From a virus, in IMG/VR virus record IMGVR_UViG_3300017963_000085, positions 1-48,596 of that record: 48,596 bases of DNA; one strand, 5' to 3'. How positions within the stretch are numbered: the stretch's first letter is position 1; the number at the start of each line of letters is the position of its first letter. Of this stretch, positions 15,860 to 48,444 are shown one piece after another. The translations under genes were made by a program, and so were the position numbers. The notes under the pieces are model-generated. The model was not told where the DNA came from, ran no database searches, and saw nothing but the letters and a program-made list of their open reading frames with translations.

Positions 15860-17196
15860 TTGAGTCGACGCTACTACAAATACCACTCAAAGAGATCGAC
15901 ATGGGGCCAAGGTATCGTAAGGACTACCACGATGTCGAACAGCTAGCCGAGTCGATCCGAGAGAAAGGGGTGATCTCACCCATTGCAGTAATGGACCGTC
16001 GGCCAAGTGGAAAGCCATACCTCCTCCTGGCTGGCGGTCGGCGCTTTGTGGCTGCCGCTATCGCAGAGTTAGAAACCATCCCCTGCAATGTCTACCCTGA
16101 GGTGGACGAGCTAACGCAGAGGCAGATCGAACTCTACGAAAACATCCACCGTGAGCAGATGACTTACGTAGAAGAGGCTGAACTCACGGATGAGATAATG
16201 AGGTTGGAGGAAGCTAAACATGGCAAAGGCACTCGAGGCCCTGGAATGGGAGCAACCATCACTAAGACCGCTCACCTCCTGGGAAAAAGCCGAGCGCTGG
16301 TTCGTGACGAACTGGACTTGGCTCAAGCGTTTAAGGAGATGCCCGAGCTTAAGGAGAAGAAGAATAAAACGGAAGCTATCAAAGCGCTCCGTAAAGCTCA
16401 GGAGGATGTAGTTCGTGAGGAGCTAGCACGACGCCTGGAGACTGGTGTCCACAAAGGCGACACGGACATAGCCAGGAAGAACCTCATGAACGCTTACGTC
16501 GTGGGTGACTTCTTCGAGAAGGCCAAGGAGATACCTGCTGGCCAGTTCCACTTGGCCGAGATAGATCCACCTTACGGCATTGACCTCAAGGACATAAAGC
16601 GCAAACAGTATGAGCAGGTCACGGTGGACTATAATGAAGTCCCTGTGGAGGATTATAAGGACTTCATGCGTAACGTGTTCGCAGAGTGCTACCGGGTGCT
16701 GAAGGACAATGCCTGGCTCATCTGCTGGTTCGCGCCTCACCCCTGGTGGGAAACTATCCGGCAGGAGATCACCCGCGCTGGCTTCACGCTCTTCGCAGTG
16801 CCTGGGATCTGGTATAAGTCAGACAGTCCCAGCCAAACGAATCAGCCGAAGAAGCGTCTGGCCAGTAACTGGGAGCCCTTCTTCTACGCTTTCAAGGGTG
16901 ATCCAGTGATACAGAAACAAGGTCGGGCGAATGTGTATCCTTATCCTAAGGTCGTGCTGACGGATAAGACTCACCCGACGGAGCGCCCTGTCGAGCTGAT
17001 CGAGGCTATCCTCGGGACGTTCGTGACTGGCGGCTCACGTATCATAGTGCCTTTCGCCGGGAGTGGAAACACTCTCCTCGCTGCGTCGAACCTTAGTCTT
17101 CAGGCTGTCGGCTTCGATTTGACGAAGATATATAAGGATCGCTACGTCATAAAGGTAGCCGAACAGGAGCCTGGGAAGTATAGGAGCTACCGATGA
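15856..17196 (+). CDS. ParB-like nuclease/CTPase domain fused to DNA methyltransferase (446 aa)
   Basis: Residues 1-115 form a ParB/Srx-type N-terminal domain with the arginine box GGRRFVAA (60-67) and ENIHREQM (95-102). Residues about 125-190 are a helical ParB-type helix-turn-helix region. Residues about 205-446 are a beta-class DNA methyltransferase: catalytic DPPY (237-240) precedes the AdoMet-binding FAGSGNT (400-406). DPPY suggests N6-adenine or N4-cytosine methylation. The fusion is known from phages and mobile elements; it probably places methylation at specific sites or protects phage DNA. No cognate restriction enzyme is present. Confidence 0.88.
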   Translation: MIESTLLQIPLKEIDMGPRYRKDYHDVEQLAESIREKGVISPIAVMDRRPSGKPYLLLAGGRRFVAAAIAELETIPCNVYPEVDELTQRQIELYENIHREQMTYVEEAELTDEIMRLEEAKHGKGTRGPGMGATITKTAHLLGKSRALVRDELDLAQAFKEMPELKEKKNKTEAIKALRKAQEDVVREELARRLETGVHKGDTDIARKNLMNAYVVGDFFEKAKEIPAGQFHLAEIDPPYGIDLKDIKRKQYEQVTVDYNEVPVEDYKDFMRNVFAECYRVLKDNAWLICWFAPHPWWETIRQEITRAGFTLFAVPGIWYKSDSPSQTNQPKKRLASNWEPFFYAFKGDPVIQKQGRANVYPYPKVVLTDKTHPTERPVELIEAILGTFVTGGSRIIVPFAGSGNTLLAASNLSLQAVGFDLTKIYKDRYVIKVAEQEPGKYRSYR

Positions 17197-18842: not shown

Positions 18843-19616
18843 ATGCCATACTTTGAAGGGCCTCTTGACTGTCGCATTGCCTTAATTGGGGAGGCTCCTG
18901 GAGAAACTGAGCACCGTATGCAGCGGCCATTCGTGGGGCGTAGTGGGCAACTGCTCACCAAGCTCCTCGACCGCGTTGGCATAGAGCGACAGGCCTGCTA
19001 CATCGACAACGTTTTCCAGGAGCACCCGCCAGGCAATAACATAGTGCCCTGGCTAGACCTCAGTAAGAAATACGCAGTCGAGACTAAGATGTTCCTCAAC
19101 CATCAGGAGGGACTAAAGAACCGCCTGGCCTCATGCCGCGCTAACGTCCTGGTGGCTGTGGGCAACGTGAGTCTCTATGCCCTCACGGGCCTTAGACAAA
19201 TCACCAAGCGTCGAGGGTCCATCCTGGAAAGCACCCTCCTCCCTGGTAGGAAGGTCATCCCTATCATCCACCCGAGTGCGGCGCTGCGCCAATACACGGA
19301 CACTCACCTCATCGCCCACGACTTACGCCGAGCCGTGGACGAGAGCTTCTCCGAGGACATCAACCTCCTCGACCGGGAGCTAATCACGGAGCCGTCGTAT
19401 AGGGAGACTCTTGACTTCATTGAGGACTGTCGCAATGGAGGTCATGAGTTTGTCGCTTACGATATTGAGGTTACACGTGGTGAGGTATCGCATCTTTCCC
19501 TTGCACCTCACGCAAGCAGGGCCATCTGTATTCCCTTCTTGTTCGAGGGAAAGAACTACTTCGTGCCTGACCAGGAGGCGCGTATGGAGGGAGATTGCGG
19601 GACTCCTCGAGGATGA
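18843..19616 (+). CDS. Uracil-DNA glycosylase plus exonuclease start; 5' part of frameshifted DNA polymerase
   Basis: Residues 1-165 form a family 4/5-like uracil-DNA glycosylase: GEAPG (16-20), PFVGRSGQLL (29-38) and the catalytic-loop HPSAA (143-147). The four Fe-S cysteines of family 4 are not all present. Residues 200-225 begin a DnaQ exonuclease: AYDIEV with Asp207 and Glu209 is Exo I. The frame then stops at 19616, while Exo II continues in the +1 frame. The natural product is therefore probably an 801-residue UDG-Exo-Pol fusion, an arrangement recalling SPO1-type polymerases. ATG after TGGAGGCACTAA. Confidence 0.82.
   Translation: MPYFEGPLDCRIALIGEAPGETEHRMQRPFVGRSGQLLTKLLDRVGIERQACYIDNVFQEHPPGNNIVPWLDLSKKYAVETKMFLNHQEGLKNRLASCRANVLVAVGNVSLYALTGLRQITKRRGSILESTLLPGRKVIPIIHPSAALRQYTDTHLIAHDLRRAVDESFSEDINLLDRELITEPSYRETLDFIEDCRNGGHEFVAYDIEVTRGEVSHLSLAPHASRAICIPFLFEGKNYFVPDQEARMEGDCGTPRG
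19573..19590 (+). other. Candidate +1 frameshift site in the DNA polymerase
   Basis: A perfect Shine-Dalgarno AGGAGG (19573-19578) stands five bases before ATG GAG GGA (19584-19592). Skipping one base at about 19587 joins the exonuclease halves in frame. A Shine-Dalgarno close behind the decoding site is the known stimulator of +1 shifting in prfB. A one-base assembly insertion in the GGG run is the competing explanation. Confidence 0.5.
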
Positions 19617-21249
19617 GTCTATCCCGAAGGTAGGACAGAACCTCTCCTTCGACGCCACGTTCCTCTTTAGGCGCTTCGGCATACGCTCGCGCCCACTCGA
19701 CGATACGATGATCGCTCAGGCCATCATCTTCCCTGACTTCCCCAAGGGCCTCGATTTCATCCAGTCTATGTACTGCGATGGGGAGCCTTACTATAAGGAC
19801 GATGGGAAGGAGTGGTTCAAGTACTCTGACGGTGAGAAGAACTTCCGGATCTACTCCGCGAAGGACTCCGCTATGGTCGCTCAGATCTGGCCCAGGCAGC
19901 AGAAGGATCTGCATACTCAGGGCAACTGGGAAACCTACCTCCGTCAGAGGGGACTGCTCGAAGCCCTAGTGTTCATCGGCGAGAAGGGCATACGCATGGA
20001 CACTCACGGGCTAATCACGTCCGCTAAGATGGCGGAGGAGAAGATAGTTGAACTCGAGCGAGAACTACGAGAGATCGTCGGAGATGATACATTTAACTGG
20101 CGAAGCGTTGTTCAGCTTAAAAAATATTTCTATGGAACCCTCGGGCTACGTAAATATACAAGGCGTGGGGCTGTTACTACGGACGACAAAGCCCTTAAAC
20201 GGATGGCAACTAAAGGCGTTCGGGAAGCTTCCATCCTCCTTGAGCTTAGACATATCTCGAAGCTCCATGGAACTTACTATACCATGCAACTGGACACTGA
20301 TGAGCGGCTCAGGTGCTCCTTCAATCCAGTTGGCACTAAACAAGGGAGAATTAGTAGCTCTAAAACGATTTTTGGCACTGGTGGAAACCTGCAGAATCAG
20401 CCTCCAGATATGAAGAAACTCATGCTGGCTGACCCTGACTACGTGGTCTTTAGTATGGACCTGAGCCAGGCTGAGAACCGCGTCGTAGGCTTCATCGCGC
20501 CAGAGCCTAAGATGATTCAAGCCTTCGAAGCAGGCACAGACATTCACAGACAAACCGCCGCTATGATCTACGGCGTTAAGATGGAGGATGTGACAAGTGA
20601 ACAACGAGACTGGGGTAAGCGTGCCAATCACGGACTTAATTATGATCTTGGATATAAGTCCTTCGCCATGTACTACCAGATTCCTGAGCCAGAGGCTTCT
20701 TTTCTTGTGGAGCGATACCACTCTATCTACCCAGGGGTCAGGCAGTGGCACTCCCAAATCCAGCACGCCCTCGGACAGAATCGCACACTGACAAATCTGT
20801 TCGGGCGTAGGCGTGTGTTCATGGATCGCTGGGGCCATGACTTGTTCAAGGAGGCCTACTCCTACATCCCTCAGTCTACCGTTGCTGAGATGATGAACCA
20901 GTGGGGCTTCCGCTACATCTATGAGCACCAGGACTTGTTCAAGCAAGTTGAACTCCTGAACACAGTCCATGACTCCGTGATCTTCCAGATCCCGAGGTCT
21001 GCTGGCTGGAACTATATGGCTCAGGCGGTCATGCAGATTAAGGAGAGTCTGGAGCAACCTTTAACTGTCAACGGGATGACCTTCAACGTCCCAGTCGACA
21101 CGAAGGTCGGCTATAACCTGGACGAGAAAGGGATGTTTGAAATCAAAGCTAAGGCCTTGAAGGACAAGAGCGCTGAGGACCTGGCGTTTATGCTTCGGGC
21201 ATGGGAGGAAACAAGTGGAACTCAAACGGCAACTGGAGGATTGGATTGA
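19588..21249 (+). CDS. polA: Family A DNA polymerase, exonuclease II/III and polymerase domains (3' part)
   Basis: Continues the exonuclease in the +1 frame. Exo II is KVGQNLSFDATFL and Exo III is IYSAKDSAM. Polymerase motif A is FSMDLSQAENRVVG, the O-helix (motif B) is RDWGKRANHGLNYDLGYKS, and motif C is LNTVHDSVIF. At the position equal to E. coli Phe762 there is His, and the motif C Glu is replaced by Ser. The frame is open back to a TTG at 19411, but that upstream translation has no domain similarity, so 19588 marks where meaningful coding begins. It is the replicative polymerase of this phage. No independent start is convincing. Confidence 0.88.
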   Translation, partial: REIAGLLEDESIPKVGQNLSFDATFLFRRFGIRSRPLDDTMIAQAIIFPDFPKGLDFIQSMYCDGEPYYKDDGKEWFKYSDGEKNFRIYSAKDSAMVAQIWPRQQKDLHTQGNWETYLRQRGLLEALVFIGEKGIRMDTHGLITSAKMAEEKIVELERELREIVGDDTFNWRSVVQLKKYFYGTLGLRKYTRRGAVTTDDKALKRMATKGVREASILLELRHISKLHGTYYTMQLDTDERLRCSFNPVGTKQGRISSSKTIFGTGGNLQNQPPDMKKLMLADPDYVVFSMDLSQAENRVVGFIAPEPKMIQAFEAGTDIHRQTAAMIYGVKMEDVTSEQRDWGKRANHGLNYDLGYKSFAMYYQIPEPEASFLVERYHSIYPGVRQWHSQIQHALGQNRTLTNLFGRRRVFMDRWGHDLFKEAYSYIPQSTVAEMMNQWGFRYIYEHQDLFKQVELLNTVHDSVIFQIPRSAGWNYMAQAVMQIKESLEQPLTVNGMTFNVPVDTKVGYNLDEKGMFEIKAKALKDKSAEDLAFMLRAWEETSGTQTATGGLD

Positions 21250-22534: not shown

Positions 22535-23072
22535 GAAGGCTGCTATGGTCATTCACACAACTTGGTGTCCTCACAACCATGACAGTGAGTGTGGTTGGGA
22601 AGCTGAAGAGCAGGTAACCTTGGATGGCAGTGACATATGGACAAGGCCTGCTCACCAGTACTGGCTGAGGCTCACCAATAACTTCATGGATCGGCTGGAC
22701 ATCACGAGTGAGCGGTTCTCGCAAGCTTACCGGGACGCTACACGTATACTGAAAAAGGAGTCAGACCAGGTTGTTACCCTGATCCGACTCCTTGTCAGTC
22801 GTAATACGTTCTGGAAGTTTATCGACGAGACACCCGAAGCTCACGCAGGCCCCGAGCTCGCATCACTCGGTGAACCCGACGAACTAGACGATCAATTCGC
22901 AGAAGCTTTTGCTCGTCTGAAAGCCGCTGGAAACCCGGAGCTTGGATCAGCCGAGACAGAGACTCCTTCGTCTGAGCGCCGTAAGCCATCGCATAGCGAT
23001 GATACATCTCAGGCGGCATCGTCACACTCTGACCATCAATCTCAAACTTCTGAGAAGGAAGGCCAGGCATAG
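22431..23072 (+). CDS. Hypothetical protein ending in antisense overlap (213 aa)
   Basis: ATG at 22431 after AAGGAGATACTAAAA, overlapping the helicase tail by 104 bp. Residues 1-50 contain a helix-rich LRALRKAGKITEQDIAAVGV segment, then WCPHNHDSECGW, a Cys/His group. From residue about 130 the coding overlaps the minus-strand giant gene by 254 bp and becomes Ser/Thr/Glu-rich and low in complexity. It is the last gene of the rightward block and no terminator separates it from the opposing late block. No family recognised. Confidence 0.68.
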   Translation: MSQDNAEQILRALRKAGKITEQDIAAVGVISPLIKKAAMVIHTTWCPHNHDSECGWEAEEQVTLDGSDIWTRPAHQYWLRLTNNFMDRLDITSERFSQAYRDATRILKKESDQVVTLIRLLVSRNTFWKFIDETPEAHAGPELASLGEPDELDDQFAEAFARLKAAGNPELGSAETETPSSERRKPSHSDDTSQAASSHSDHQSQTSEKEGQA

Positions 23073-26000
23073 CGTCGAGCCGCGCTAGCTCCTCTTCAAC
23101 GGGGTCCAGGTCCGGGGTTGACCACTTAAGCGGAAGCCACTGGCGGAGGGCATTACCAGGTATGGTAATCTCCTCTCCAAAGGCATCCACTCGTGGAAAG
23201 CCCCGGTCCTGTTCCTCAAACACTGCCGAGTCCCACGGAAGAGTCTGCGCGAGTTCGCTCACCCACCCAGTTCTTTCACGAACCTTAGCCTCCTCTGGCC
23301 CACCAGCAAATGCAAACTTCGCTTCCCACGCACGGCTGAGGGAACGGAAGAAACTACTCGCAGGCACCAAGCTGGCCGGGATCCTCTCCAGAGTTCTCTT
23401 CGCACCTTCCCCGATGTTAGGCTTAAAGAGCCTCTCCACATTCTCCGCGTAAGTGCTGGCGATAAGATTCTCATAGACTCCGTTGGCCAGCTGGAGCATA
23501 GTCTGCACCATGACGTTCTCGTCCTCTTCCACCTCAGGATTCGTGAACGCCTGCCAGGCAGTTGCTATGCTGCTGATCACAGTGTTCAGGGGCTCGACCC
23601 TGTTATAACTAACCCATGTCCCGCCCATCCAGCTAGGCATCCTAATCGCATAAGGGATCTTCCCTTGCTGATAGAAGGCCGCGCGCTTGGTCGGACTCTC
23701 AGGCACGTTGGTCGTGATGTCATCACTATCAAACATGAGCATCAAGATAGTTGCAAGCACCGTGCCCTCGAACTGCCTGGCCAGGAGCTCCACGTCTGCT
23801 TCCCGTAAGCGCTGCCGATTGGCTACTGCACCGAGTCCCGGTGTCATCTCGATCCCACGCTTAAAGATGTTCGTTAGCGTGTTCACAAACGGCACCACGA
23901 GGCGACCGGCCTGGAACGGCAATTTATCCCGCCAGTGCATCACGAACCGCGCTGTGCGCCCTGGGCGGTCGTTGAACGTTGCCATTGCCGCGAAGTCCCT
24001 AGCCTGCTGGACAAGCTTCTTAGGCGGGTGCGCGAGAATGTCCCTCATAGGCTTGCCGGTCTTTCGGCTTTCCCTATACGCCAGCGAGTTCATCTGTGCA
24101 TCAAAGGCTAGCGTCCTGAAGTAAACATCCATAGCGAACAGGGCGTTGCCAGGGAACGAGACTATCGGTGCGACTTTCCGGAGCGCTGCATGAGGACTCC
24201 TTGCGAAGGCTCTCCGCGCACTCCCCATGTCGATAGCGAACTTGCTCGCTATATCAGGCATCGTGCGGCCCTTGAGGGTCTCCCGAACCAGGTGGGTTTC
24301 CTTCACCTCCTGCCGGCCACGCTTCAAGCCAGCCAAGAACGGTGCGACTTCCTCGAAGAACACCTGCCGTTCCTTCCCACGGATAGTCGGGAATACCCAC
24401 TGCAGGGCCTTCGCTACGAGGTTGTTACTGGAGCCGGCCTTCGTCAACGCCCTATCAATCGTGGCCTGGACGTAGCGATCAGGAACCTGATGCGCCAACC
24501 ACATAGCGTTGTTCCCTACATTCACCAAGTGCGTCGGGACACCTGAGAGCCAGCCGTTCATCACATACTCCCAGAAGTAATCCGAAGCGCGAGGATCCTT
24601 CAGCCTCTTGTTAAAGTCCTGCACAAGTGCTTCATTATTAATTCCACCAGTGTCCAGGAGCACACTCAGTTCCTGCAACTCCGCCGTCGTGAGCCTCCGA
24701 TTGAGATTCTGCACTGCCTTAATCACTGCAGTCGGTCCAGCGTTCACGTTCATGCTCTGCAGGGCTCTACCAGCGAACCGGCTCAGGTCACCGAGCAGGC
24801 GGAGTTCCTTATGCAGCTCCGTGTCCAGCGCCTCCAACTGCACGTCGGCGTTCTTACCAGTCATCTCGACCATCCCCTCGACTCTTGCGATCTCCTCAAA
24901 GATCTTCTTGAAGCGAAGGTTGGCTTTGATTCTCAGGGCCAGCATCCCATGTATACTGATCCGTCCACCACCTCTGCCGAACTCCCTCTGAATACGCTGC
25001 AGGGTCTTAGGCTTCGTGAGAATGTCCAGGGCCCTGGCGTGAAGCTGCGCACTGGTCAACGCCTCAGCTTCCAGTTCCGCTGCGTCCACACCTTCCACCG
25101 CGAAATCAAGCTCATGCAGGATCTCATTATGCTTGATGTTCACACGGAAGGGACTAACCGGCTCATCAGCATCGGAGTACTTAAATGTCCCAGGCTGCCG
25201 GCTCTCGTTGATCTCACTCGAACCCTTATGATAAATGTCACTCAGGTGCTTCGCTGCCGCCCGAGGCTCCAGTGCCAGGTTCTGATCTATGTGCTTAGCA
25301 AGACGCGCATTAAGTGCATGAATCACATCCTCAGCCAGGACATCCCTCCCTCGCCAAGAAGCATACTTAACACGAGCCGCATGCCATAGGTCATGAATCC
25401 AGTTCACGAACCTGGCCCATGTGCTTTCGCTCGCTTTGATCTGTCGGGCTGCGAAGTAATCCCCTACCATGTCCGAGAGGGTTTCTTCCGCCAGGTGGTC
25501 CTGAATTGCCTGCTGCTGTTGGTCAGGCGTTAGGCCAGCTGGAACGGCCTGAGCCGCAGTAGCTGCCCTCGCAGCCTGTTCTTTCTGCGTCCTGGACACA
25601 TCCACCATCTTAGCTATCTCGAGGCCTTGCTGAACCAGCGGGTGATTCTTACCCATTAGCTCAATCAGTCTATGCGTCGCCTCGTGGCCGATGTGAGAGA
25701 AGTTAGCATCCCGGCTGAACCAGACTTCTCCAGTCCGCGTATTCACAACTGCGTTCTTCTTCCTGCCATCAGGTCCAGTGATCTGCCCACCAGTCCAGTG
25801 CACTGTCGAGAAGAAGCCATTCTTGACCAGGATGTTCGTGAGCCTATGGCGCTGGAGGATCGAAGGCTCCCGGCTCTGAATCTCAGCGGGAGACATGAAG
25901 CTCACACCGTCAACACTATAGCCGAAGGACTCCAGGCCTCCATAGCGCGTGGAGTACTGGAACGCGTCCTCCTCATTCTGATCGTAACCCTCAGGCGTTT

Positions 26001-28197
26001 CGTTCAGATCCTCAGGAATAAACGTGCGCCGAGTGTCAAGGTCAGACATCTTGAGCTCACTAATGTCCTTCCCAAGAGCATCAGCTATGGCCTGCAGCTC
26101 AGCGGGATTCTGTCCATAGGACTGTTCCACTGTAAAGGGCAGACCGCCAGCTTCATGCTCCGCTTTATTTGCCTCTATAATATCCCGGTTCAGGTTAAGC
26201 CTACGGTCCCGAGCTTCAGTAGGCGTAATACCTTCCGCTTCCGCTGCTGCTATATCTGCGCCACTAACCCCAGGCGCTACACGCCGAGGCCGCGGACGAG
26301 TTTCCCCAGTCTGTTCCGTGACTGTAGCCTGCCTCTCACGCTGCCGACGATCACGCTCACGACGCTGCTCCAGGCCCTGCAGATACTTCTCATACCGAGC
26401 AAGCTCCGTGGGAGTCATGGCCCCTAAGGTCTCTTTCCCAATAGCTCCGCCTCTGCGCTTCCTCCGCTGGTTCGGACGGAGAACAGTTTTCTCCAGGGCT
26501 TGAACCTCCTCACGCAGCGTCCGAATCTCCTGTCGAGTCTCCGCTCTCCTGGCCCTCTCCTCGGCTGAGCTATACCGCCTGGGTCTGATGTTCCTGCCTC
26601 GGGATCTCTGGTTCAGGTAGAAGAGCAAACCATCACCAGTCACATCCCCAGGGTTCACCATAGTCCACTGCGTATGCAGCTCCGCCATTGCCTCGTCGTA
26701 AGCCGCCATAGTTTTCTTCGGCTCACGACCTTGGGCAAACTGTGCTTCCAACCTAGCAGCCGCCGCGTTAGCAGCATCGAGAGCCAACTCAATAGACTCA
26801 TTGGACTCCCATTGTGCAGCAGGGCCACCCTCAGAGAGAATGATTCGGGAGGTCGGAAGCTCAACCGTGGGACCACTTGCCTCGGCACGAACCACTGTGC
26901 GGGGCTGCCCATCAGGTCCACGAACTTCCTCAACCTCTTGCTCTCCACCGATCTCGACTGTAGGAGCAGGCAACAGATAAGTGGTGCTCTTAGCCTCCGC
27001 CAGGAGAGGGATCGGCTGAGGCTGGATCTGCTCCCTAATCTGCTCTTCCGCCGTGGCAGTTATCTGCGGTAGTAGAAGAACTTCCTGGTCAGCCTGTAAA
27101 TCAGGCATGTTCTCAGGATTCTCTCCGAACATCACGTTGTAGAACTTGACCTGCCTCATATGCCTTTGGAGGTCCTCAAGAACAGAGGGATCTCCAGTGG
27201 CTCTCCATCGTGCCTCGAAGGAGTCTATGACCTTATTCGTAACCTCCCCATGAGCGAGCTTATCTGTCTCCTCTCTAGCCCGCTCGAAGATCATGCGGTC
27301 CTCACGTAGCCCACGCCGATACTTCGGGGCGAGCTTGAGCGTGGTTAGCAGGCCACCACCAAGGGCACCTCCAAGAGCCGCCATCCCGACGCCTTCCGTC
27401 AGGGCCTGCTCTGAATCGGTGAAGTACTTATGCAGCGCGTTGGCCAGGAGTTCCTGCGTGCCTTCCTCCGCACCTTCACCGAGCATCAACTGCGCCATGC
27501 TACGGGCACCCTGGCCCAGCTTACCACCGAGAAAGTCAAATCCGATCTTCCTCAACACTCCCGGTGTAACGTTCTTAAGGGCCGGAGCTAGGATCTTATT
27601 GATCTTAGTCCACCCGAGGCCAGCACCTACAGCTCCAGATCCAACCGTCTGGACGAACTCATTAAACGGGTCAGCGGCTTCCTCGGGATGAGCTTGCCGG
27701 TATTCGTGTATCCGCTTACGGGCAGATCCGCTGCTTTGCAACCCGTAGTGCGCGACCACAGCCCAAGCTGTATAAGGGCCACCAAGTAATGCAACAGCGC
27801 TCGGAACAATACTTCCGACGACACCACCGGCGAACTCACTGGCTCCTCCGACAGTTTCGTATTGATGCTCCTGCGCGAATCTTTGGGCTTCCTCGAACTC
27901 TCCCACGAGGGAGTAGTAGTCCGAAACGGTCTGCACACCGGAGTTATAAGCGGACTTGAAAAAGTTCTCAATAGCTCCGATCTCATCATTAGGATCCTCT
28001 GGCTGCGGCCCAAGAGAGGAGAGGAAGTTACTCTTCACCCTCTCTTGTTGGTCAGGTCTAAGGGCCTGGAAACCTTTCTCTTTAGCAATGTGCCCGTCGA
28101 AGAAGTTCGAGGCGACCCTGCTCTTATCTTCATGGCTCAGTGCTTGGAATCCAGGCTCTTGAAGGATCCTTTCCCAGGGGTCGACGAGGAGTGGCAT
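22819..28197 (-). CDS. Giant internal virion protein with HEATH metallopeptidase motif (1792 aa)
   Basis: Probably an ejection protein stored in the head and delivered with DNA, as in other podoviruses. Visible parts: repeats GFQALSHEDKSRV (about 16-28) and GFQALRPDQQERV (about 42-54); a Gly-zipper hydrophobic region (about 120-290); HEATH (838-842) with downstream EETLSDMV, a gluzincin-type zinc-protease arrangement; and a region from about 1180 resembling LPD38-type polyvalent phage proteins. A third GFQRLSDEQK copy lies near the C-terminus. The protease could act on peptidoglycan-linked or host proteins during entry. Last gene of the late block; ATG after TAAGGAGAACACT. Confidence 0.8.
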   Translation of the reverse strand: MPLLVDPWERILQEPGFQALSHEDKSRVASNFFDGHIAKEKGFQALRPDQQERVKSNFLSSLGPQPEDPNDEIGAIENFFKSAYNSGVQTVSDYYSLVGEFEEAQRFAQEHQYETVGGASEFAGGVVGSIVPSAVALLGGPYTAWAVVAHYGLQSSGSARKRIHEYRQAHPEEAADPFNEFVQTVGSGAVGAGLGWTKINKILAPALKNVTPGVLRKIGFDFLGGKLGQGARSMAQLMLGEGAEEGTQELLANALHKYFTDSEQALTEGVGMAALGGALGGGLLTTLKLAPKYRRGLREDRMIFERAREETDKLAHGEVTNKVIDSFEARWRATGDPSVLEDLQRHMRQVKFYNVMFGENPENMPDLQADQEVLLLPQITATAEEQIREQIQPQPIPLLAEAKSTTYLLPAPTVEIGGEQEVEEVRGPDGQPRTVVRAEASGPTVELPTSRIILSEGGPAAQWESNESIELALDAANAAAARLEAQFAQGREPKKTMAAYDEAMAELHTQWTMVNPGDVTGDGLLFYLNQRSRGRNIRPRRYSSAEERARRAETRQEIRTLREEVQALEKTVLRPNQRRKRRGGAIGKETLGAMTPTELARYEKYLQGLEQRRERDRRQRERQATVTEQTGETRPRPRRVAPGVSGADIAAAEAEGITPTEARDRRLNLNRDIIEANKAEHEAGGLPFTVEQSYGQNPAELQAIADALGKDISELKMSDLDTRRTFIPEDLNETPEGYDQNEEDAFQYSTRYGGLESFGYSVDGVSFMSPAEIQSREPSILQRHRLTNILVKNGFFSTVHWTGGQITGPDGRKKNAVVNTRTGEVWFSRDANFSHIGHEATHRLIELMGKNHPLVQQGLEIAKMVDVSRTQKEQAARAATAAQAVPAGLTPDQQQQAIQDHLAEETLSDMVGDYFAARQIKASESTWARFVNWIHDLWHAARVKYASWRGRDVLAEDVIHALNARLAKHIDQNLALEPRAAAKHLSDIYHKGSSEINESRQPGTFKYSDADEPVSPFRVNIKHNEILHELDFAVEGVDAAELEAEALTSAQLHARALDILTKPKTLQRIQREFGRGGGRISIHGMLALRIKANLRFKKIFEEIARVEGMVEMTGKNADVQLEALDTELHKELRLLGDLSRFAGRALQSMNVNAGPTAVIKAVQNLNRRLTTAELQELSVLLDTGGINNEALVQDFNKRLKDPRASDYFWEYVMNGWLSGVPTHLVNVGNNAMWLAHQVPDRYVQATIDRALTKAGSSNNLVAKALQWVFPTIRGKERQVFFEEVAPFLAGLKRGRQEVKETHLVRETLKGRTMPDIASKFAIDMGSARRAFARSPHAALRKVAPIVSFPGNALFAMDVYFRTLAFDAQMNSLAYRESRKTGKPMRDILAHPPKKLVQQARDFAAMATFNDRPGRTARFVMHWRDKLPFQAGRLVVPFVNTLTNIFKRGIEMTPGLGAVANRQRLREADVELLARQFEGTVLATILMLMFDSDDITTNVPESPTKRAAFYQQGKIPYAIRMPSWMGGTWVSYNRVEPLNTVISSIATAWQAFTNPEVEEDENVMVQTMLQLANGVYENLIASTYAENVERLFKPNIGEGAKRTLERIPASLVPASSFFRSLSRAWEAKFAFAGGPEEAKVRERTGWVSELAQTLPWDSAVFEEQDRGFPRVDAFGEEITIPGNALRQWLPLKWSTPDLDPVEEELARLDAMPGLPSQKFEIDGQSVTMPPEMYHRYAMAYGAQTKESLSRLIQAPGFQRLSDEQKLLRIDRLVRRVHRVMRARGLRELRVSRR

Positions 28198-40750: not shown

Positions 40751-40775
40751 AGTTTTGTCAGAATCTGTCAAAACT
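40751..40775. promoter_or_regulatory. Operator-like palindrome, site 8
   Basis: Left half AGTTTTGTCAGA (40751-40762), centre A, right half TCTGTCAAAACT (40764-40775). It is identical to site 7 except for the centre base. On the minus strand it starts on the last base of the terminase TAA stop and ends 15 bp before the portal start. Confidence 0.85.
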
Positions 40776-42331
40776 TAGATGAATGTCCCGATGAGTTCAG
40801 TCCGCTCATCCTCATCATAGTCCAGTTCATCGTATTCCGCTTCAATGGCGGCTGGATCCTCTTCGTTATCTATCGGGCCGAGGAACCTTTCGCCTTCCTC
40901 CATAGCGAAGATGATGCCACTAACCGCATCAATCGCATCCCACTGCTCTGGCTTGGGCCACATCATGAGGTTCTTCTCTAAGCCACCGCACGTTGCGGAG
41001 TTGTGGAACACCAACTTGTTGCGATAAAGTGGAATCATTCCACCGCTTCGCCGAGGCCCACGCTTACCTTCGCGGGGCTTCACCTCGACGATGTGATAGT
41101 GCTTCCCTCGACGGATCATCTCATCCCTGATAGGCCACATCAGATACTCATGCAAGCCGGTGACTTCTGGCGCAAGGACCATTGCGTTCCACCGCTCAGC
41201 CATGTCGAACATCTCTTGAAGGTGGGAGTGCGGATCGAACTTACCGGTAACGATCTCCCTGATATATAGTTTATTATTGCGGCGATTTACAGTTACAGCA
41301 GCCAGTGCAGTCTCCGCACTCCCTTCCCTCATGGTTCGAGCAGGGTCCGAAAGCACCACAGTTTCCAGGTCAAAAGGCTTTGCGCCCTGCTCTTTCCAAA
41401 ACTCTGGACTCTCCTCATAAGATTGGAAGTATTCTTCCTTAAAGCCCTGCTCTTCCAGCGCGATGGGAATGTTCCTATACTCCATGTAAAACAGCCCAAG
41501 GTCACCGTTCTGCCTAAACTCATCAGCCAGCGCCCTGACCTGCTCATCACTCATGAAGTCTGGCCAGTTGCTGTGATAATTGTCATCGCAGATTTCGTAG
41601 CGCACTGAGTGCCAAGACTTATCACGCAGTAAGCGGTTAAGCAAACTCTGCTCATGCAAAATGGTTCCTATGACAATTATACGCCAAGTGTTACTGCCGC
41701 GATCAACTGAGTTAATAACCGCACTGTTAAACCACTTCCACAACTTCTCCCTCTGCTCCTCACTCTCCACGCTCTCGTCGTCCTCCAAGTCGTCGATAAC
41801 GAAGAGATCAGGACGTTGGGACCTATACTTCCTTCCACGTATCTGCTGCCCAGCGCCACGCGGCCTGACCTTACAGCCAGTGCTCGTGACCCACTCCTTC
41901 ATCCCGAAAGGATCCTTTCTATCCTCGGGCTGGAGTTTTCCAAAAAGAACCCTGATAAGGTCGTTAGTGACCAGTTCATCCTTCAGGTCGTCCGCCTGCT
42001 CTATTGCTGCGTCTGCAGTGGCACTGACCGGAATGATGTGCTTACTGTCCCTGAACAATATCCGCTTGGCCGGGAAAGACAAGTTAAAGAGGCTGGTCTT
42101 GCCGAAGCCACGCGGTGCAGCTATGGCCACCTTCTGAAGACTATCATCGTCCAGGATCCTGCACAGATCCTTATGCAGGCTGGACCAAGGCCTAAAGAAG
42201 ACCTCAGGGAAGAAAGTCTTCGAGAAGAAGGCGGTATCGTTGTGACACTCCGCCATCATCTGGAAGAGCTCATCCATGTTGCCCAGACCTAAGGCATCAA
42301 GAATTGGCCCAGCATCCTCTTCACGTATCAA
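40775..42331 (-). CDS. Terminase large subunit (518 aa)
   Basis: The DNA-packaging motor. Walker A is APRGFGKT (72-79) and Walker B is LFVIDD (176-181) in the ATPase half. The RNase H-like nuclease half begins at TVVLSDPA with Asp329; AVTVNRRNNKLYIREIVTG and a late acidic residue complete its fold. The TTG at 42331 overlaps the previous stop (TTGA) behind GGAAGGGGAACAAGAG; a downstream ATG at residue 19 is possible. Its likely small subunit is 5 kb upstream. Confidence 0.9.
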   Translation of the reverse strand: MIREEDAGPILDALGLGNMDELFQMMAECHNDTAFFSKTFFPEVFFRPWSSLHKDLCRILDDDSLQKVAIAAPRGFGKTSLFNLSFPAKRILFRDSKHIIPVSATADAAIEQADDLKDELVTNDLIRVLFGKLQPEDRKDPFGMKEWVTSTGCKVRPRGAGQQIRGRKYRSQRPDLFVIDDLEDDESVESEEQREKLWKWFNSAVINSVDRGSNTWRIIVIGTILHEQSLLNRLLRDKSWHSVRYEICDDNYHSNWPDFMSDEQVRALADEFRQNGDLGLFYMEYRNIPIALEEQGFKEEYFQSYEESPEFWKEQGAKPFDLETVVLSDPARTMREGSAETALAAVTVNRRNNKLYIREIVTGKFDPHSHLQEMFDMAERWNAMVLAPEVTGLHEYLMWPIRDEMIRRGKHYHIVEVKPREGKRGPRRSGGMIPLYRNKLVFHNSATCGGLEKNLMMWPKPEQWDAIDAVSGIIFAMEEGERFLGPIDNEEDPAAIEAEYDELDYDEDERTELIGTFI

Positions 42332-42488: not shown

Positions 42489-42875
42489 CTATCTCCTTGG
42501 GCCAGGCCCAGGTAAGTCAGTAATCTCGAAGTGCCCTGGATCAAAGGGATACGTCCAGAAGCCTCCCCAGCGTAAGGTCACACCGACCTCGTAAGATGCC
42601 TCAAAGATATACCCTGCCAGGATGCAGAATCGAGGGACATTATGCCAGTCAATCGGATAAGGTGCGAGGTCAAAGGCCAGGCTTGGCAACACATTATGCT
42701 TGCCCTCTTTAACAGAACTTGCCCCACTCTCGTAGGCAATCTTCTGCATCTCCAATGGCCTATAACCCTCCAGGACCGAGAAGTCGAAACGCTTTATGGT
42801 CAGGGTAGCGATTTCGACAAGCCTAGGGTCGCATGTTGCTAGCGCAGTCTTCGACCTCGCCCCGAAGTGTGGCAT
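42489..42875 (-). CDS. M15-family endolysin (L-alanyl-D-glutamate peptidase) (128 aa)
   Basis: Cleaves the peptide of peptidoglycan to release progeny. Zinc ligands and neighbours fit the M15 family: GKH (His60), AFD (Asp69) and DPGHFE (Asp112, His115). The opening HFGARSKTALATCDPRLVEI and DFSVLEGYRPLEMQ match the T5-type endolysins. The ATG at 42875 overlaps the previous stop (TAATG); a TTG at 42902 is less likely. No signal peptide, so release depends on a holin. Confidence 0.85.
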   Translation of the reverse strand: MPHFGARSKTALATCDPRLVEIATLTIKRFDFSVLEGYRPLEMQKIAYESGASSVKEGKHNVLPSLAFDLAPYPIDWHNVPRFCILAGYIFEASYEVGVTLRWGGFWTYPFDPGHFEITDLPGPGPRR

Positions 42876-43180
42876 TAACTCGACGCTCCGATTGACTCCC
42901 AACTCACACCGTCAGTCACGGCTGTGTTGAGAATGTTAATGATCCTGTCCGTGACTGTATCGCCAGTGCACTCATCCAGGTCTGCCGGCCCAGTTTTCTG
43001 ACACGGCCCTGCGCCGTCGAACAGCTCATCCAGCGTGATCTCCCGCTCTGCCTGAGCCAGACCCTGGTTCTTCATCTGCGTGTCCAGCAACTCTCCTTGG
43101 TCGTTCAAGCGGATGAGTTCCTGAACCATGATGAGGACGCGCTGGAGTTTCGCCCTGCGTGTTGAAAAACTATCCGCCAT
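42875..43180 (-). CDS. Hypothetical late protein (101 aa)
   Basis: Helical, basic first 45 residues (RRAKLQRVLIMVQELIRLN) with an acidic second half containing two Cys (CQKTGPADLDEC). ATG overlaps the previous gene by 11 bp. No family recognised; sits between the fibre and endolysin genes. Confidence 0.64.
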   Translation of the reverse strand: MADSFSTRRAKLQRVLIMVQELIRLNDQGELLDTQMKNQGLAQAEREITLDELFDGAGPCQKTGPADLDECTGDTVTDRIINILNTAVTDGVSWESIGASS

Positions 43181-43484
43181 GTTTGTGTAATCTCCTTTGT
43201 TCCGTTTCTAAGTATCCAATGATTCTCCTGCGGTCCTTGCTATTCCCCGCAAACGCTATGGCAAAGTCCCCATCACTTAAGGTCTCAATCACCACTGTAT
43301 CCCCATCAGCCGCGTAAGAGGAGCCGACGATCACAACTGTATCGTCATCCGTGGTCCCTATGATCTCGAGTAGATCAGGGCCAACGTCTGGCTCATCCTG
43401 CACATCTTGCTCCAGGAGGATCTTGTCTCCAGTTTCAAGGAGAACATAATCCCCTGTCTCGAGCAACAACTTATCAGTAGCCAT
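43170..43484 (-). CDS. Small repeat-start structural protein (104 aa)
   Basis: The N-terminus contains the repeated strand motif KLLLETGDYVLLETGDKILL, which recurs in short phage tail or decoration proteins. A strand-rich acidic middle follows (DDDTVVIVGSSYAADGDTVV). ATG overlaps the previous stop (TAATG). The direct function is unknown. Confidence 0.62.
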   Translation of the reverse strand: MATDKLLLETGDYVLLETGDKILLEQDVQDEPDVGPDLLEIIGTTDDDTVVIVGSSYAADGDTVVIETLSDGDFAIAFAGNSKDRRRIIGYLETEQRRLHKHGG

Positions 43485-44221
43485 TAGGTCGGGGCTAACC
43501 TTACGCAGAAGAGACTACCATAAGCGGCTGTAATGGTCTTACTCGCGCCATTAGGCTGGGCTCTTAGGTCCAGGTCAACGGGCTGACTCGTCACATCATA
43601 GATACCGTAGTTGCCTGCGTTCCCAACATCTCCACCAGTTCCTATAGTCCGCTGCCCAACAGCCGCCTGCACGAGCGTCCCACCGATGTGAGGCGCTATT
43701 AGCCATATCACATTACCTGTGCCGCCGAAGCTCAGGTTCCAGAAGAACCAGTAGATCCCAGTGCGATTAATAGTGATCTTGTCATTCGCATAGTCTACGG
43801 AGATGTTCGCACTGCTATTCCCATCCGCCGTAAACTGCGTAATCTTAGTATACCCGCCTGAGGACATTGACTGGCCTGAGGCATTGGCGTAAATGTAAAT
43901 CTGCCCATAGTCCAGATTAGCTACTGCCGCTTGCAACGTTACAATGTCAGCGGCGTTCGTCGCTATATCCGCTGCGTTCGTAGCAATGTCTGCGACGTTG
44001 GTAGCTATATCCGCAGCATTTGTAGCTATGTCCGCTGTATTGTCGGAAATGTCACTGACCAGGGTGGCCTTCCCTATGTCAGTCTCTATCTGAGTAATAA
44101 GGTTCGACCAGGCGATCTTCTTGTTGACTGGCGAGCCGCTCGGATCATCGACCTTATGCATCAGGTCATCCGAGCTCATGGCGGTGTCAACGGCTAGTCC
44201 TGTAATCTTCGTATCAGCCAT
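43484..44221 (-). CDS. Tail fibre / receptor-binding protein with C1q-like head (245 aa)
   Basis: Residues about 1-45 are a short anchor, 55-95 an array of heptads (IATNAAD repeated, encoded by 21-bp DNA repeats) forming a trimeric coiled coil, and about 105-245 a C1q/TNF-like beta-sandwich head (YTKITQFTADGNSSANISVD, TINRTGIYWFFWNLSFGG). Such a stalk-and-head layout is typical of a receptor-binding fibre. ATG overlaps the previous stop (TAATG). Confidence 0.72.
   Translation of the reverse strand: MADTKITGLAVDTAMSSDDLMHKVDDPSGSPVNKKIAWSNLITQIETDIGKATLVSDISDNTADIATNAADIATNVADIATNAADIATNAADIVTLQAAVANLDYGQIYIYANASGQSMSSGGYTKITQFTADGNSSANISVDYANDKITINRTGIYWFFWNLSFGGTGNVIWLIAPHIGGTLVQAAVGQRTIGTGGDVGNAGNYGIYDVTSQPVDLDLRAQPNGASKTITAAYGSLFCVRLAPT
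43953..44036. repeat. Four 21-bp in-frame repeats in the fibre gene
   Basis: Units begin at 43953, 43974, 43995 and 44016 and encode the heptad IATNAAD on the minus strand. Small base changes between units show that they have drifted. Length change by slippage could alter stalk length. Confidence 0.75.
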
Positions 44222-44592
44222 TAGCGCGTCACCTCCTTCGCCAGGAACACATTGCCATAAAGCACCCTGAACGTGTTAAGCACATTCGAGATCTCTACAT
44301 CATAGACCGCAGTTGTAAAGTCCAGGGCAGCCGTTACGGCCCTTGAGATCTGAAGACCAAAGGTTCTCAGGGCGCCACCTTCCGAGAACACTATATTTCC
44401 GCTGGGCGTATTCGTACTTCCTTCATACGACCCAGTGAGGATCACAGTACTACTATCTATCGTGGGCCTAATGTCCATCTCAAAGTCCAGGTCAGTCAAA
44501 TTAACGGCTGTCCCGGCCTTATTGGTCCACTTAAACGTGACCTCGAAGGAAGCGCCCTGCTCTATAATTATGTCATATCGGGCTGCTCTCAT
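44221..44592 (-). CDS. Beta-rich tail-associated protein (123 aa)
   Basis: The opening RYDIIIEQGASFEVTFKWTN and the later VNLTDLDFEMDIRPTIDSST belong to a widely seen phage pattern (EQGxxFxxxFxW...VDLTgyxxxmxIRp) of a small beta-sandwich protein beside tail fibres. It probably contributes to the baseplate or fibre attachment. ATG overlaps the previous stop (TAATG). Confidence 0.66.
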   Translation of the reverse strand: MRAARYDIIIEQGASFEVTFKWTNKAGTAVNLTDLDFEMDIRPTIDSSTVILTGSYEGSTNTPSGNIVFSEGGALRTFGLQISRAVTAALDFTTAVYDVEISNVLNTFRVLYGNVFLAKEVTR

Positions 44593-44948
44593 TAGTCGTC
44601 CTCAGCTTGTCGTATCAAATACTGTATCCCAGCCTTTATCTCCGCTGATTCCCTTTTAACAGTTTCTAAGTCCTCCTGCATCCTATCTACCCGCCCCGCT
44701 AAGTTCTGCCGAAACTCGTCAAAGGTCTCACGCGAAACATGGCCTGGGTGCAAGCCCTTCTCGTGGAGTTGGATCTCTTCCTTCGCCACGGATCTAATCT
44801 CTACCTGCACCTCTGATCTACGCTCCATCGCGTAGGTGAAGACGATCCAGGCGCCGCCGAGCAGTGCTACTATCAGCGCTACGACGACGCCTATCCCGAG
44901 TTTACTATTACGAAGATCAGGCATATCGACCTCCTCGGTCCCACCCAT
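44592..44948 (-). CDS. Membrane-anchored coiled-coil protein, possible holin/spanin-type (118 aa)
   Basis: A single hydrophobic segment (about residues 15-37, LGIGVVVALIVALLGGAWIV) and a long charged coiled coil to the end. The ATG at 44948 follows AGGAGCGAGGATC; an alternative ATG at 44924 has the stronger GAGGAGGTCGAT. It lies in the late block about 1.7 kb upstream of the endolysin in transcription, so a lysis function is possible, but the architecture also matches the two early membrane proteins at 17.8-18.5 kb. Confidence 0.6.
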   Translation of the reverse strand: MGGTEEVDMPDLRNSKLGIGVVVALIVALLGGAWIVFTYAMERRSEVQVEIRSVAKEEIQLHEKGLHPGHVSRETFDEFRQNLAGRVDRMQEDLETVKRESAEIKAGIQYLIRQAEDD

Positions 44949-44959
44949 GATCCTCGCTC

Positions 44960-45133
44960 CTAGCTTTTACGCCGCAATACAGTCCGTGCCAGCACGTCTT
45001 TGACAATCTTAAGGAGATCATCGTCACCCTTCCAAGGCGTCTTCTGGACTATAATGTCAGCCATAGCCAGGATCAAGGCTATGCGTTCCAGGCTTAGAGG
45101 ATCTATGCCTAGGATGTTCAATGCAGTGTCCAT
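44960..45133 (-). CDS. Small helical late protein (57 aa)
   Basis: ATG at 45133 follows TAGGAGACCTC, and the frame ends TAG at 44960. Residues 1-30 are hydrophobic and helical (LSLERIALILAMADIIVQK), followed by a charged tail (KGDDDLLKIVKDVLARTVLRRKS). It may associate with a membrane and could be the holin of the neighbouring endolysin; no family recognised. Fits exactly between the two adjacent genes. Confidence 0.62.
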   Translation of the reverse strand: MDTALNILGIDPLSLERIALILAMADIIVQKTPWKGDDDLLKIVKDVLARTVLRRKS

Positions 45134-45141
45134 GAGGTCTC

Positions 45142-47034
45142 CTATTGCTTGAAGAAGTTAATGAGCCCGTCCAGCGTGCCTTCCTCCTCAGCTCGCTGGT
45201 AGTGAAATTCCTCCAGCCTATCTATCCTCTGGTTAGTTTCCTGTATCGCTTGGATGAGGATGGGCACGAACTTAGAATACTCAATCGTCAGGACCTTCTC
45301 ACCCTGCGTATACTCAATCTCCTTCACATACTCAGGAAAGATCTCCAAGAGATCCTGAGCGATGAGGCCTACATCATGCTGGCCACCATCACCGATCCTG
45401 GTAAACTGCTTCACCCTGAGGGCCCTGACCTTCCCGAGCACTTCCTCTGCTTTGGTGATATTCTCCTTGAGCCTCTCATCCGAGATAGCCCCGTAGGAGT
45501 TGTCATCATTCACTACATCACCGTCACTGTAGACGATAAACCGGGGAGCTGTGTTATCCTCAGCATGGATGAACCAGCTCGTGTTATCATCTGGCGCAGC
45601 TTCGGTGAAGTTCAGGTCCAGGTTATAAATGGTGTTGGAGCCAGGCGTATAAGGGTTCGAGAACACTACGAGAGGCGTAGCACTCGGCGCATCGGACCAA
45701 GCGAGCTTGATACTGTTATCTATGCGAATCCCACCCTTAAACACCGTGGAGTCCCAGAAGGTCCACTGGGCATTGATGTTCTGAGCGGAGTTACCAAACG
45801 TAGGCTTATGAGCGTTCCAGTCCGCATTACGCTCATCACGCCAGCGCGCAAGGACGTTATTGCTATTAGCACTGTAATGCCCAAGCGTGACGTAGAGATA
45901 GTCATTATACTCTATCATCGCGCTACACATAGGCGGCGTAATTTCAGGACCAACGTCCGTATTACTGTAACGCTCATCAGGATATAGCCTTTCTATCTGG
46001 CTATTCCCGACTGTTGCGGAAGGGCCGAAGCCCAGGTAGAGGATACCCTTATACTCAAAAAGGCTCTTAATACGCTCCTCAGAGGTGTTGACAACCCAGG
46101 CTTCTATACCCGCGAAGGTGATGTCATTCCACCTAGCAAGATCACCCTCATTAGCAGATTCGCCGGTGCCTATGTAAAGGTGGTCATTATAGTTGACCAT
46201 ACTAAAGGCACTGCGGCCAAGTCCACCTTGGTCATACCAACCTGTCCCATCATTAATGATGAAGTTGTCATTCCAGGTGGTGTTGCTCGTAACGGCTGCG
46301 ACGAGAATCCCCTCATGCACAATGCCGCTGTAGGAGTCCCTCCAGGTGCCACCAAGCTCCGTCGCTGCGTCGAAGGACACTGCCCAGCTTGACCCATCTT
46401 TAGAGGAAAGAATATAAGCTGATCCGCCAGCATCCTTCGCACCAGCAAAGAGACTATCGTCGTAGGCAACTATCCACCTGATTGCATCCTCAACCGACGG
46501 TGCGTGAACCTCAGTCCATGTGCCTGCGGGATCAGTGCATCGGTAGATGTAACCTTCGCTAACATCACCCATGCCTGCGTAGAGATACCCACCGTAGTTG
46601 AACAACACCTCAGCCCACATGCTGGCCCAGGTCTTGACCTGCGTAAGCGTTATACCATCCCAGGACCAGATAGCTCCACCACCGGAGGACGTAACTACGG
46701 AGATATAAAGGATACCGTTATACACCTCCATGTCGGGATACCACTTAACACCGCTGGAGTCATTAACGATATACTCCCAGTCCGTTTGCGGATAAATAAG
46801 CTCTCCCGTAATGATCTTCCCGGCTGCGATGGTATCAGGTATGTCATCCCAACTGGAGTCCTGAATAACCTGGATCACAGTGTCCCTGATGCCGCTCAGG
46901 TCCACGGCGGTCGAGGTCACTGCCGCATCGTTCTTCCAGGCACCTCGCTGGTTGAACTGGGCCGGCGCTTCGGACATCCACGCCAGAGTGATGCCCAGCA
47001 GAAGCCCACTGAGGAGAAATGCTTTAAGTCTCAT
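45142..47034 (-). CDS. Secreted beta-propeller protein with S74 chaperone domain (630 aa)
   Basis: N-terminal MRLKAFLLSGLLLGITLAW then MSEAPA-Q is a convincing Sec signal peptide with an A-x-A cleavage site before Gln. Residues about 95-415 hold seven similar units (YNGILYIS, YGGYLYAG, YDDSLFAG, HEGILVAA, YNDHLYIG, YKGILYLG, YNDYLYVT), a seven-bladed propeller. Residues about 510-620 are an S74 intramolecular chaperone with ISDERLKENI, catalytic Ser518 and Lys523. S74 proteins are normally phage fibres or spikes made in the cytoplasm; a signal peptide is odd. ATG after TAGGAGGCCAAC. Confidence 0.85.
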   Translation of the reverse strand: MRLKAFLLSGLLLGITLAWMSEAPAQFNQRGAWKNDAAVTSTAVDLSGIRDTVIQVIQDSSWDDIPDTIAAGKIITGELIYPQTDWEYIVNDSSGVKWYPDMEVYNGILYISVVTSSGGGAIWSWDGITLTQVKTWASMWAEVLFNYGGYLYAGMGDVSEGYIYRCTDPAGTWTEVHAPSVEDAIRWIVAYDDSLFAGAKDAGGSAYILSSKDGSSWAVSFDAATELGGTWRDSYSGIVHEGILVAAVTSNTTWNDNFIINDGTGWYDQGGLGRSAFSMVNYNDHLYIGTGESANEGDLARWNDITFAGIEAWVVNTSEERIKSLFEYKGILYLGFGPSATVGNSQIERLYPDERYSNTDVGPEITPPMCSAMIEYNDYLYVTLGHYSANSNNVLARWRDERNADWNAHKPTFGNSAQNINAQWTFWDSTVFKGGIRIDNSIKLAWSDAPSATPLVVFSNPYTPGSNTIYNLDLNFTEAAPDDNTSWFIHAEDNTAPRFIVYSDGDVVNDDNSYGAISDERLKENITKAEEVLGKVRALRVKQFTRIGDGGQHDVGLIAQDLLEIFPEYVKEIEYTQGEKVLTIEYSKFVPILIQAIQETNQRIDRLEEFHYQRAEEEGTLDGLINFFKQ

Positions 47035-47043
47035 GTTGGCCTC

Positions 47044-47496
47044 CTACCAGTTAAAGATGACGCGGGCACTGTCAATAGTCACCGACGTCACAGTGGGTGC
47101 GCTGGAAAACACAGGGAGCACTACATCACAGGCCGGAAGATTAAGGGACCAGACCACATGGCTCACCTCCGTGACCCTCAGCGTATCACACTGGGCCAGG
47201 AGGAAGTCATCAACGTCTGGACCTATCTTCGTGCCGCAGTACATCTCAGCCAGCACAGACCCTGTGTTAAACGTGCCGTTCGCTGCGAAAGCGATGGTGG
47301 TCCACTTGGCCGGCCTGAACCAGTGGAAGGTATCACTGGCCGTGCTCGCCGTGGCAATGTTCAGCACACTATCTGTGCCCACCGCGTTGAGGCGGTAGAT
47401 CATATTGGTCGTGACCTTATCCTGCAACGGATTGGTCTGCGCCCAAGCCACAGCCACGAGTGCGATCAGAGTGAAAAGGGCAATGAGTTTCCTCAT
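47044..47496 (-). CDS. Secreted beta-rich protein (150 aa)
   Basis: MRKLIALFTLIALVAVAWA-Q is a classic Sec signal peptide (basic n-region, hydrophobic core, A-W-A before Gln). The mature part is beta-rich (FNTGSVLAEMYCGTKIGPD, then TVTSVTIDSARVIFNW) with two Cys (about residues 87 and 103) that could form a disulphide outside the cytoplasm. ATG after AGGAGACAGACTC. It overlaps the small-terminase candidate by 4 bp and precedes the other secreted protein, so they form a pair. Confidence 0.78.
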   Translation of the reverse strand: MRKLIALFTLIALVAVAWAQTNPLQDKVTTNMIYRLNAVGTDSVLNIATASTASDTFHWFRPAKWTTIAFAANGTFNTGSVLAEMYCGTKIGPDVDDFLLAQCDTLRVTEVSHVVWSLNLPACDVVLPVFSSAPTVTSVTIDSARVIFNW

Positions 47497-47984
47497 GAGT
47501 CTGTCTCCTCTACTACTTCAGCCTCGACAGCTTCGCGCCTGCCGTGGGCCAGGTTTTTGATACGCTCAAGTGCTTCCGCGTCCAAGTACGCAACTGCGTG
47601 GCGACCTTCTACCTTCTGAATCTTGCCGTAGCCCGCTCTGTCAAGAAGGTCCTGAGCTACCTGGGCGCGGAGCTTGGCATCTTGGGTGAGCTCTCCATCC
47701 CGCATCTGCTCCAGGATACGGAGACTCTTCCCAGCGTCTTTCTTCATCTGTCCGATTACATCGACAGCCTCATCATCCGCCGCGTCCCGAAGGACAGCCA
47801 TCTTCTCCTGGAAAACTGGGCTGTTCCGCACATCGGAGACATTCTGAGGCGTGCATCCGAGGACCTCTGCGACCTCCTTATTCGTGTAGCCGAGGAGGAG
47901 CAGGCGCGCCATTTGGTGATGCCTTTCCCACATGTGCTGAAGCGTATACTTCCGTTCGGAGGGCGGCTTAGGGACTCTAGCCAT
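47493..47984 (-). CDS. Terminase small subunit candidate / HTH protein (163 aa)
   Basis: A helix-turn-helix (residues about 28-55, LLLGYTNKEVAEVLGCTPQN and VSDVR) is followed by a helical dimerisation-type body and an acidic end (EAVEAEVVEETDS). DNA-recognising small terminases have this pattern, and it starts the late block; however, the large subunit is 5 kb downstream, which is uncommon. A regulator of the palindromes is the alternative. ATG after GGGAGACCACA, just behind operator-like site 9. Confidence 0.62.
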   Translation of the reverse strand: MARVPKPPSERKYTLQHMWERHHQMARLLLLGYTNKEVAEVLGCTPQNVSDVRNSPVFQEKMAVLRDAADDEAVDVIGQMKKDAGKSLRILEQMRDGELTQDAKLRAQVAQDLLDRAGYGKIQKVEGRHAVAYLDAEALERIKNLAHGRREAVEAEVVEETDS

Positions 47985-48415: not shown

Positions 48416-48444
48416 AATATACACAGATTGGGTGCAGTTGTCAA
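48416..48444 (-). promoter_or_regulatory. Late sigma70-like promoter P4 (leftward)
   Basis: On the minus strand TTGACA (48444-48439), 17-bp spacer, TATATT (48421-48416), again within TGTGTATATTTA as in P1 and P2. It would start transcription of the whole leftward late block about 65 bp ahead of the gene at 48352. Because it looks like an ordinary sigma70 promoter, late timing must come from repression or other control. Confidence 0.82.

Follow-up and report, generated by a model that had tools for sequence, protein, structure and literature searches.

The window, meaning the whole 48,596-base stretch analysed here, is one record of an uncultivated bacterial virus of the short-tailed type, in which the late block (terminase, portal, major head and internal virion proteins) lies on the minus strand. 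Within this block, two open reading frames on the minus strand, encoding proteins of 150 and 630 amino acids, are located between the genes for the small and large terminase subunits in a tightly packed series (Table 1). The gene directly upstream, previously put forward as a small-terminase candidate, keeps that assignment by its match to phrog_2538, and its stop overlaps the start of the 150-aa gene, which is itself followed after nine bases by the 630-aa gene; the next gene begins eight bases beyond the end of the latter. The focal genes adjoin lysis genes (the endolysin and small membrane proteins). The sole strong promoter-like site on the minus strand stands ahead of the whole block, and a consensus search found no promoter immediately before the two focal genes, which would thus be expressed with the late operon. 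An autonomous moron with its own promoter and terminator was considered and is unsupported, as the gene junctions are packed and no promoter lies directly upstream. Elsewhere in the window, matches to DNA polymerase are split between overlapping frames at 18843-19616 and 19411-21249, which match successive parts of phrog_17 and possibly reflect a frameshift, a split gene or an assembly error. The frame at 15856-17196 encodes a DNA methyltransferase fused to a ParB-like nuclease domain, and that at 22819-28197 a 1,792-aa internal virion protein that weakly matches, over residues 124-300, the phrog_2206 family of virion RNA polymerases (E 7.8e-6).

Table 1. Features of the late block around the focal gene pair (positions within the window).
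Feature	Position	Strand	Match or basis
Promoter-like TTGACA-N17-TATATT, ahead of the whole block	48416-48444	-	consensus match only
Terminase small subunit, directly upstream of the pair	47493-47984	-	phrog_2538, E 3.1e-7
150-aa protein; predicted cleavable signal peptide, mature part beta-rich by eye	47044-47496	-	no known family
630-aa protein; predicted signal peptide 1-25, seven propeller-type repeats ~105-410, fibre tip ~455-517, S74 518-~610, C-terminal coiled coil	45142-47034	-	
57-aa small hydrophobic protein, candidate lysis gene	44960-45133	-	sequence; phrog_402, E 0.018 only
118-aa protein, N-terminal membrane helix and coiled coil, weakly spanin-like	44592-44948	-	phrog_1152 (Rz-like), E 0.015, weak
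245-aa fibre-like protein without leader, candidate virion fibre	43484-44221	-	blastp 4e-8 to L181; phrog_17481 (minor tail), E 0.0027
Endolysin, same block	42489-42902	-	phrog_465, E 7.8e-29
Terminase large subunit (TerL), query for finding relatives	40775-42331	-	phrog_38, E 1e-71

Both focal proteins begin with a leader, MRKLIALFTLIALVAVAWA^QTN in the 150-aa protein and MRLKAFLLSGLLLGITLAWMSEAPA^QF in the 630-aa protein, each composed of a basic n-region, an uncharged hydrophobic stretch and an A-x-A site ahead of Gln, with cleavage predicted after residue 19 (AWA^QT) or 17 in the former and at APA^Q in the latter. Under a consensus heuristic scorer, not SignalP, the same scores were reached in 15/20000 and 5/20000 shuffles of the two proteins, respectively, which bears out the sequence-only reading that had described both as textbook signal peptides. 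In the rest of the window the same scorer found one further convincing gene with a putative cleavable signal peptide, and this exception is the N-terminal membrane anchor of the 118-aa protein (GGA^W). The same reading had conceded that true starts downstream of the hydrophobic leaders would undo it; the leader ATG of each gene is, however, the only start with a good ribosome site (GAGGA and AGGAGG), the site being absent or weak at later in-frame starts, including the ATG at codon 20 of the 630-aa protein, so that the true starts are most probably those that include the leaders. By the heuristic scorer and the start analysis together, both N-termini have the features of Sec type I signal peptides (n-, h- and c-regions, A-x-A, an uncharged h-region and a true start), and Sec export of both proteins from the leader ATGs in the late operon is well supported as a prediction.

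The S74 domain of the 630-aa protein scores well above the curated cut-off (Pfam PF13884, residues 518-571, E 9.1e-14; 51.9 bits against 22), and its catalytic residues S518, D519 and K523 (SDxxxK) are invariant, so the intramolecular chaperone proposed earlier stands. A profile search with this protein led to phage fibres and MyRF, and the predicted structure of the S74 part, the only usable part of the model, matches the MyRF ICA domain; a PDB sequence search returned chance matches only. Six of the seven ~45-residue propeller-type repeats beat all 300 shuffles when held out. AlphaFold run without a deep alignment gave no confident fold for the propeller region, nor for the 150-aa protein (pLDDT 40). 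The first 440 residues had no match among 50,697 phage records at E<=10, and no known virion-attachment N-terminus was matched there; an anchor-like motif was found instead in the 245-aa fibre-like protein. Scanning of viral contigs with the single S74 protein or the 150-aa protein found no relative. The fibre tip, in turn, is a sequence common to viral fibres (roughly 35-47% identity to viral tips) and is phage-type, not bacterial-type.

It is unusual for a viral S74 protein to bear a leader. No leader was present on any of 53 intact viral S74 proteins from 80 contigs, nor on any of 17 viral S74 proteins in a second sample found with another motif, where the single scorer hit (L302, 94 aa) was dismissed on inspection, its predicted site overlying the S74 motif. 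By contrast, in 297 genomes from the phylum of a groundwater deltaproteobacterial MAG, 17/21 complete S74 open reading frames carried leaders (one phylum sampled). The contrast between none of ~70 viral and 17/21 bacterial proteins therefore suggests that the leader belongs to the secreted-bacterial S74 form, and, as judged from its sequence, the 630-aa protein is a chimera of secreted-bacterial leader architecture on a phage-type tip. That phage-type tip weakens the notion that the S74 gene came from a host, with the leader as its mark. The earlier premise that export would be a dead end for S74 fibres is wrong in general, as most of the sampled bacterial S74 proteins appear to be secreted and so are the mosaic adhesive trimers (MAT) of Bdellovibrio (PMC10769870). 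Among cellular genomes, a Candidatus Portnoybacteria MAG (L091, 420-kb contig) has a 4,602-aa open frame with four S74 matches, the best of which is the closest bacterial match to the window tip (47%); such a giant multi-S74 protein in a CPR genome is odd.

The window terminase is 83-84% identical to that of a single other contig, L002, whose sequence starts within the same slot, and the nearest annotated phage by terminase is Desulfofustis phage LS06-2018-MD01 (35%), for which the CRISPR-predicted host is Desulfofustis sp. PB-SRB1 (PMC10370329). A three-way terminase alignment gave 50 loci, in which 24/216 genes of at least 200 aa bore leaders as against 2/172 in unrelated viral contigs under the same scorer. 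Spikes, fibres and lectins with signal peptides stand next to TerL in these relatives, and fibre-like and lectin-like neighbours with leaders lie downstream of the terminase in L112, L119, L121, L122, L125 and L155, that of L119 being tail-fibre-like (phrog_24210, E 1.2e-10). One family of exported spikes has a ~300-aa N-module in common, with a conserved neck (GIWTDSRAY) after the leader, followed by divergent beta-helix or other ends. A scan with this module gave 37 loci, with a leader on 34 of the 37 modules scored; of the remaining three, L172 has a leader visible by eye, in L180 the leader lies in a neighbouring frame, and L181 lacks one. The leader-bearing spikes include 29 that are distinct below 90% identity, and their leaders persist despite divergence (mean identity 33% in the leader and 45% in the mature part). 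When one full member was compared with the phage collection, nothing matched. Bacterial homologues of the neck mostly carry leaders and mostly lie in glycan-synthesis loci, with two in prophage-like clusters (gene identities by eye).

The window pair is not homologous to these spikes, the profile of their mature N-module having no match in the window, and the nearest informative TerL relatives of the window, L102 and L148, have no leader-bearing protein of at least 200 aa; the link between the window and the exported spikes is thus one of analogy and position. On the TerL tree the window falls in a six-row clade in which no other slot checked has a leader-bearing protein of at least 200 aa, so the window leaders were probably gained separately, as far as cut contigs let this be judged. 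Inheritance of exported proteins throughout the clade is weakened, their distribution on the TerL tree being patchy (11 changes against a shuffled mean of 13.0, with 50/500 shuffles as low), a patchiness that arises in part from contigs that cover one side of TerL only, from the 5' truncation of the L101 protein upstream of TerL and from the start of L002 inside the slot. Between TerS and TerL, L117, L118, L121, L128 and L130 have a recurring ~320-350-aa gene, starting MxxKLSVIISNRNDxxMLxVTIRSC and glycosyltransferase-like by eye, which shares the slot with exported spikes. Small lipoprotein-like genes, candidate outer-membrane spanins, adjoin exported proteins after TerS in L112, L117 and L128 and at 36101-36688 in L003, and the slot and the lysis cassette would thus coincide. 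In L215 and L182, leader-bearing beta-helix spikes occupy head or tail-fibre positions of Mu-like or contractile-tailed (pro)phages (identities by eye), so the trait may cross phage types.

The spike necks also bear on how leaders relate to virion attachment. The neck of L181 is 44% identical to that of L182 over 192 residues (E 6e-34), and in L181 it follows an anchor-like N-terminus and no leader, whereas in L182 it follows a leader; the L181 N-terminus in turn resembles that of the leaderless 245-aa fibre of the window. Because the same neck follows either, the leader and the virion-anchor-like N-terminus look like interchangeable alternatives, and leader versus anchor could serve as a simple rule for sorting spike genes in metagenomes.

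Taken together, these data permit a model in which the focal pair are late, Sec-exported envelope proteins that act as non-virion adhesins or a shield and are not ordinary fibres assembled in the cytoplasm, a reading to which we give about even credence. In textbooks, tail spikes and fibres are made in the cytoplasm. This model proposes that both proteins are translated from their leader ATGs in the late operon with cleavable Sec signal peptides, the step with the best support. Once exported, the 630-aa protein would, on family and bacterial precedent, trimerise via S74, cut itself at S518 and free the chaperone, leaving a trimeric adhesin composed of the propeller and the phage-type fibre tip. 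In a host with two membranes, the products would gather in the periplasm, since no outer-membrane anchor, C-terminal sorting signal or lipobox is seen in them, and would be freed with the virions at lysis. In the periplasm or after release, or else on the cell surface, the propeller or tip may then bind the host receptor or a surface glycan and so hinder re-adsorption of progeny to debris, or superinfection. The fibre of the virion itself would then be a different protein, with the leaderless 245-aa protein and its anchor-like N-terminus as the candidate. A receptor decoy, a superinfection block and assembly outside the membrane are all possible roles that look alike in sequence. However, the leader-bearing spikes pair conserved N-modules with variable C-termini, as the receptor-binding proteins of virions also do, and they occupy tail-fibre positions in other phages (L182, L215). 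A recurring set of spikes and fibres with conserved Sec leaders, in which leader and virion-anchor-like N-terminus are apparent alternatives ahead of one neck, would mean that some phages use adhesins as secreted weapons or shields, or assemble adhesins outside the cytoplasm.

That counterpoint leads to a reading in which the exported proteins are receptor-binding parts of the virion that fold, trimerise or form disulphides in the periplasm and join the virions as the inner membrane fails at lysis. A fibre tip with S74 is the architecture of a virion fibre, and it is in keeping with this reading that, close to TerL, leaders occur on each of several neighbouring genes of fibre, lectin and spike type (L112, L121, L122, L125, L155) and on the tail-fibre-like protein of L119, and that the spikes vary at the C-terminus behind a conserved N-module. 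We nonetheless consider it unlikely, as the literature searched gave no known tailed phage assembled in this way, the leader and the anchor-like N-terminus look mutually exclusive (L181 versus L182), and the window has a separate leaderless fibre. Its lineage-wide form, in which an uncultivated phage lineage with podovirus-type virion genes would Sec-export its receptor-binding apparatus of spikes, fibres and lectins, mature it in the periplasm and join it to virions only at lysis, the window contributing the propeller-S74 fibre and its small partner, is a shade more doubtful still.

Equally, the pair could be cargo, a host-derived or host-like secreted adhesin or glycan enzyme expressed on the surface before lysis for superinfection exclusion or surface change. 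In bacterial genomes it is normal for S74 proteins and beta-helix necks to be secreted, glycosyltransferase-like genes encoded by relatives occupy the same slot (by eye), and Lom (PMC12309495), Bdellovibrio MAT (PMC10769870) and Pantoea WceF (PMC7949094) are precedents. However, no outer-membrane export or anchor signal was seen in the products, the apparent lack of an own promoter points to late-operon expression, and the tip is phage-type, so that this reading, too, seems improbable. Finally, the hydrophobic N-termini could be uncleaved helices of virion proteins, or the true products could start downstream, as cleavage rests on heuristics. This is very unlikely given good ribosome sites at the first ATGs only, the retention of leader character by 29 distinct spikes while the leader sequence diverges, and the absence of leaders from the ~70 control viral S74 proteins.

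Compared with known systems, the envelope-adhesin model has partial counterparts in both phages and bacteria. Phage S74 fibres (the T5 L-shaped fibre, 8hqz; the K1F endosialidase, 3gw6; cyanophage and pelagiphage fibres) share the S74 chaperone and tip with the window protein; those sampled lack a leader, however, and the propeller body of the window protein is matchless among the phage records searched. In a literature search that covered subscription journals thinly, no phage tail spike or S74 fibre with a Sec leader was reported. Lambda Lom (PMC12309495) is, with others whose genes lie amid those for tail fibres, a precedent for a phage-encoded envelope protein and, like the window protein, has a signal peptide and is encoded within the fibre region, but Lom is a small outer-membrane beta-barrel whereas the window protein is fibre-like and predicted to be soluble. 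The Pantoea stewartii WceF protein, a tailspike-fold EPS hydrolase with a Tat leader (PMC7949094), resembles the exported spikes of the relatives in joining a tailspike fold to an export leader; it is, however, bacterial, Tat-dependent and part of an EPS operon, and, as far as tested, shares no homology with the window pair. A further likeness is to the mosaic adhesive trimers of Bdellovibrio bacteriovorus, which combine a signal peptide with a working S74 (PMC10769870), their S74 subgroup having, like the window protein, a signal peptide, an elongated adhesin and a C-terminal self-cleaving S74 with SDxxxK. The MAT proteins are bacterial and ~1000 aa long, their leader is followed by a conserved beta-rich domain of ~130 aa, and their description includes no propeller, whereas the window protein is encoded in a phage late operon and its tip is of the phage type; membership is not claimed, as the repeat body of the window protein starts at about residue 105. 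Secreted bacterial S74 and tailspike-like proteins are thus already known from the literature searched.
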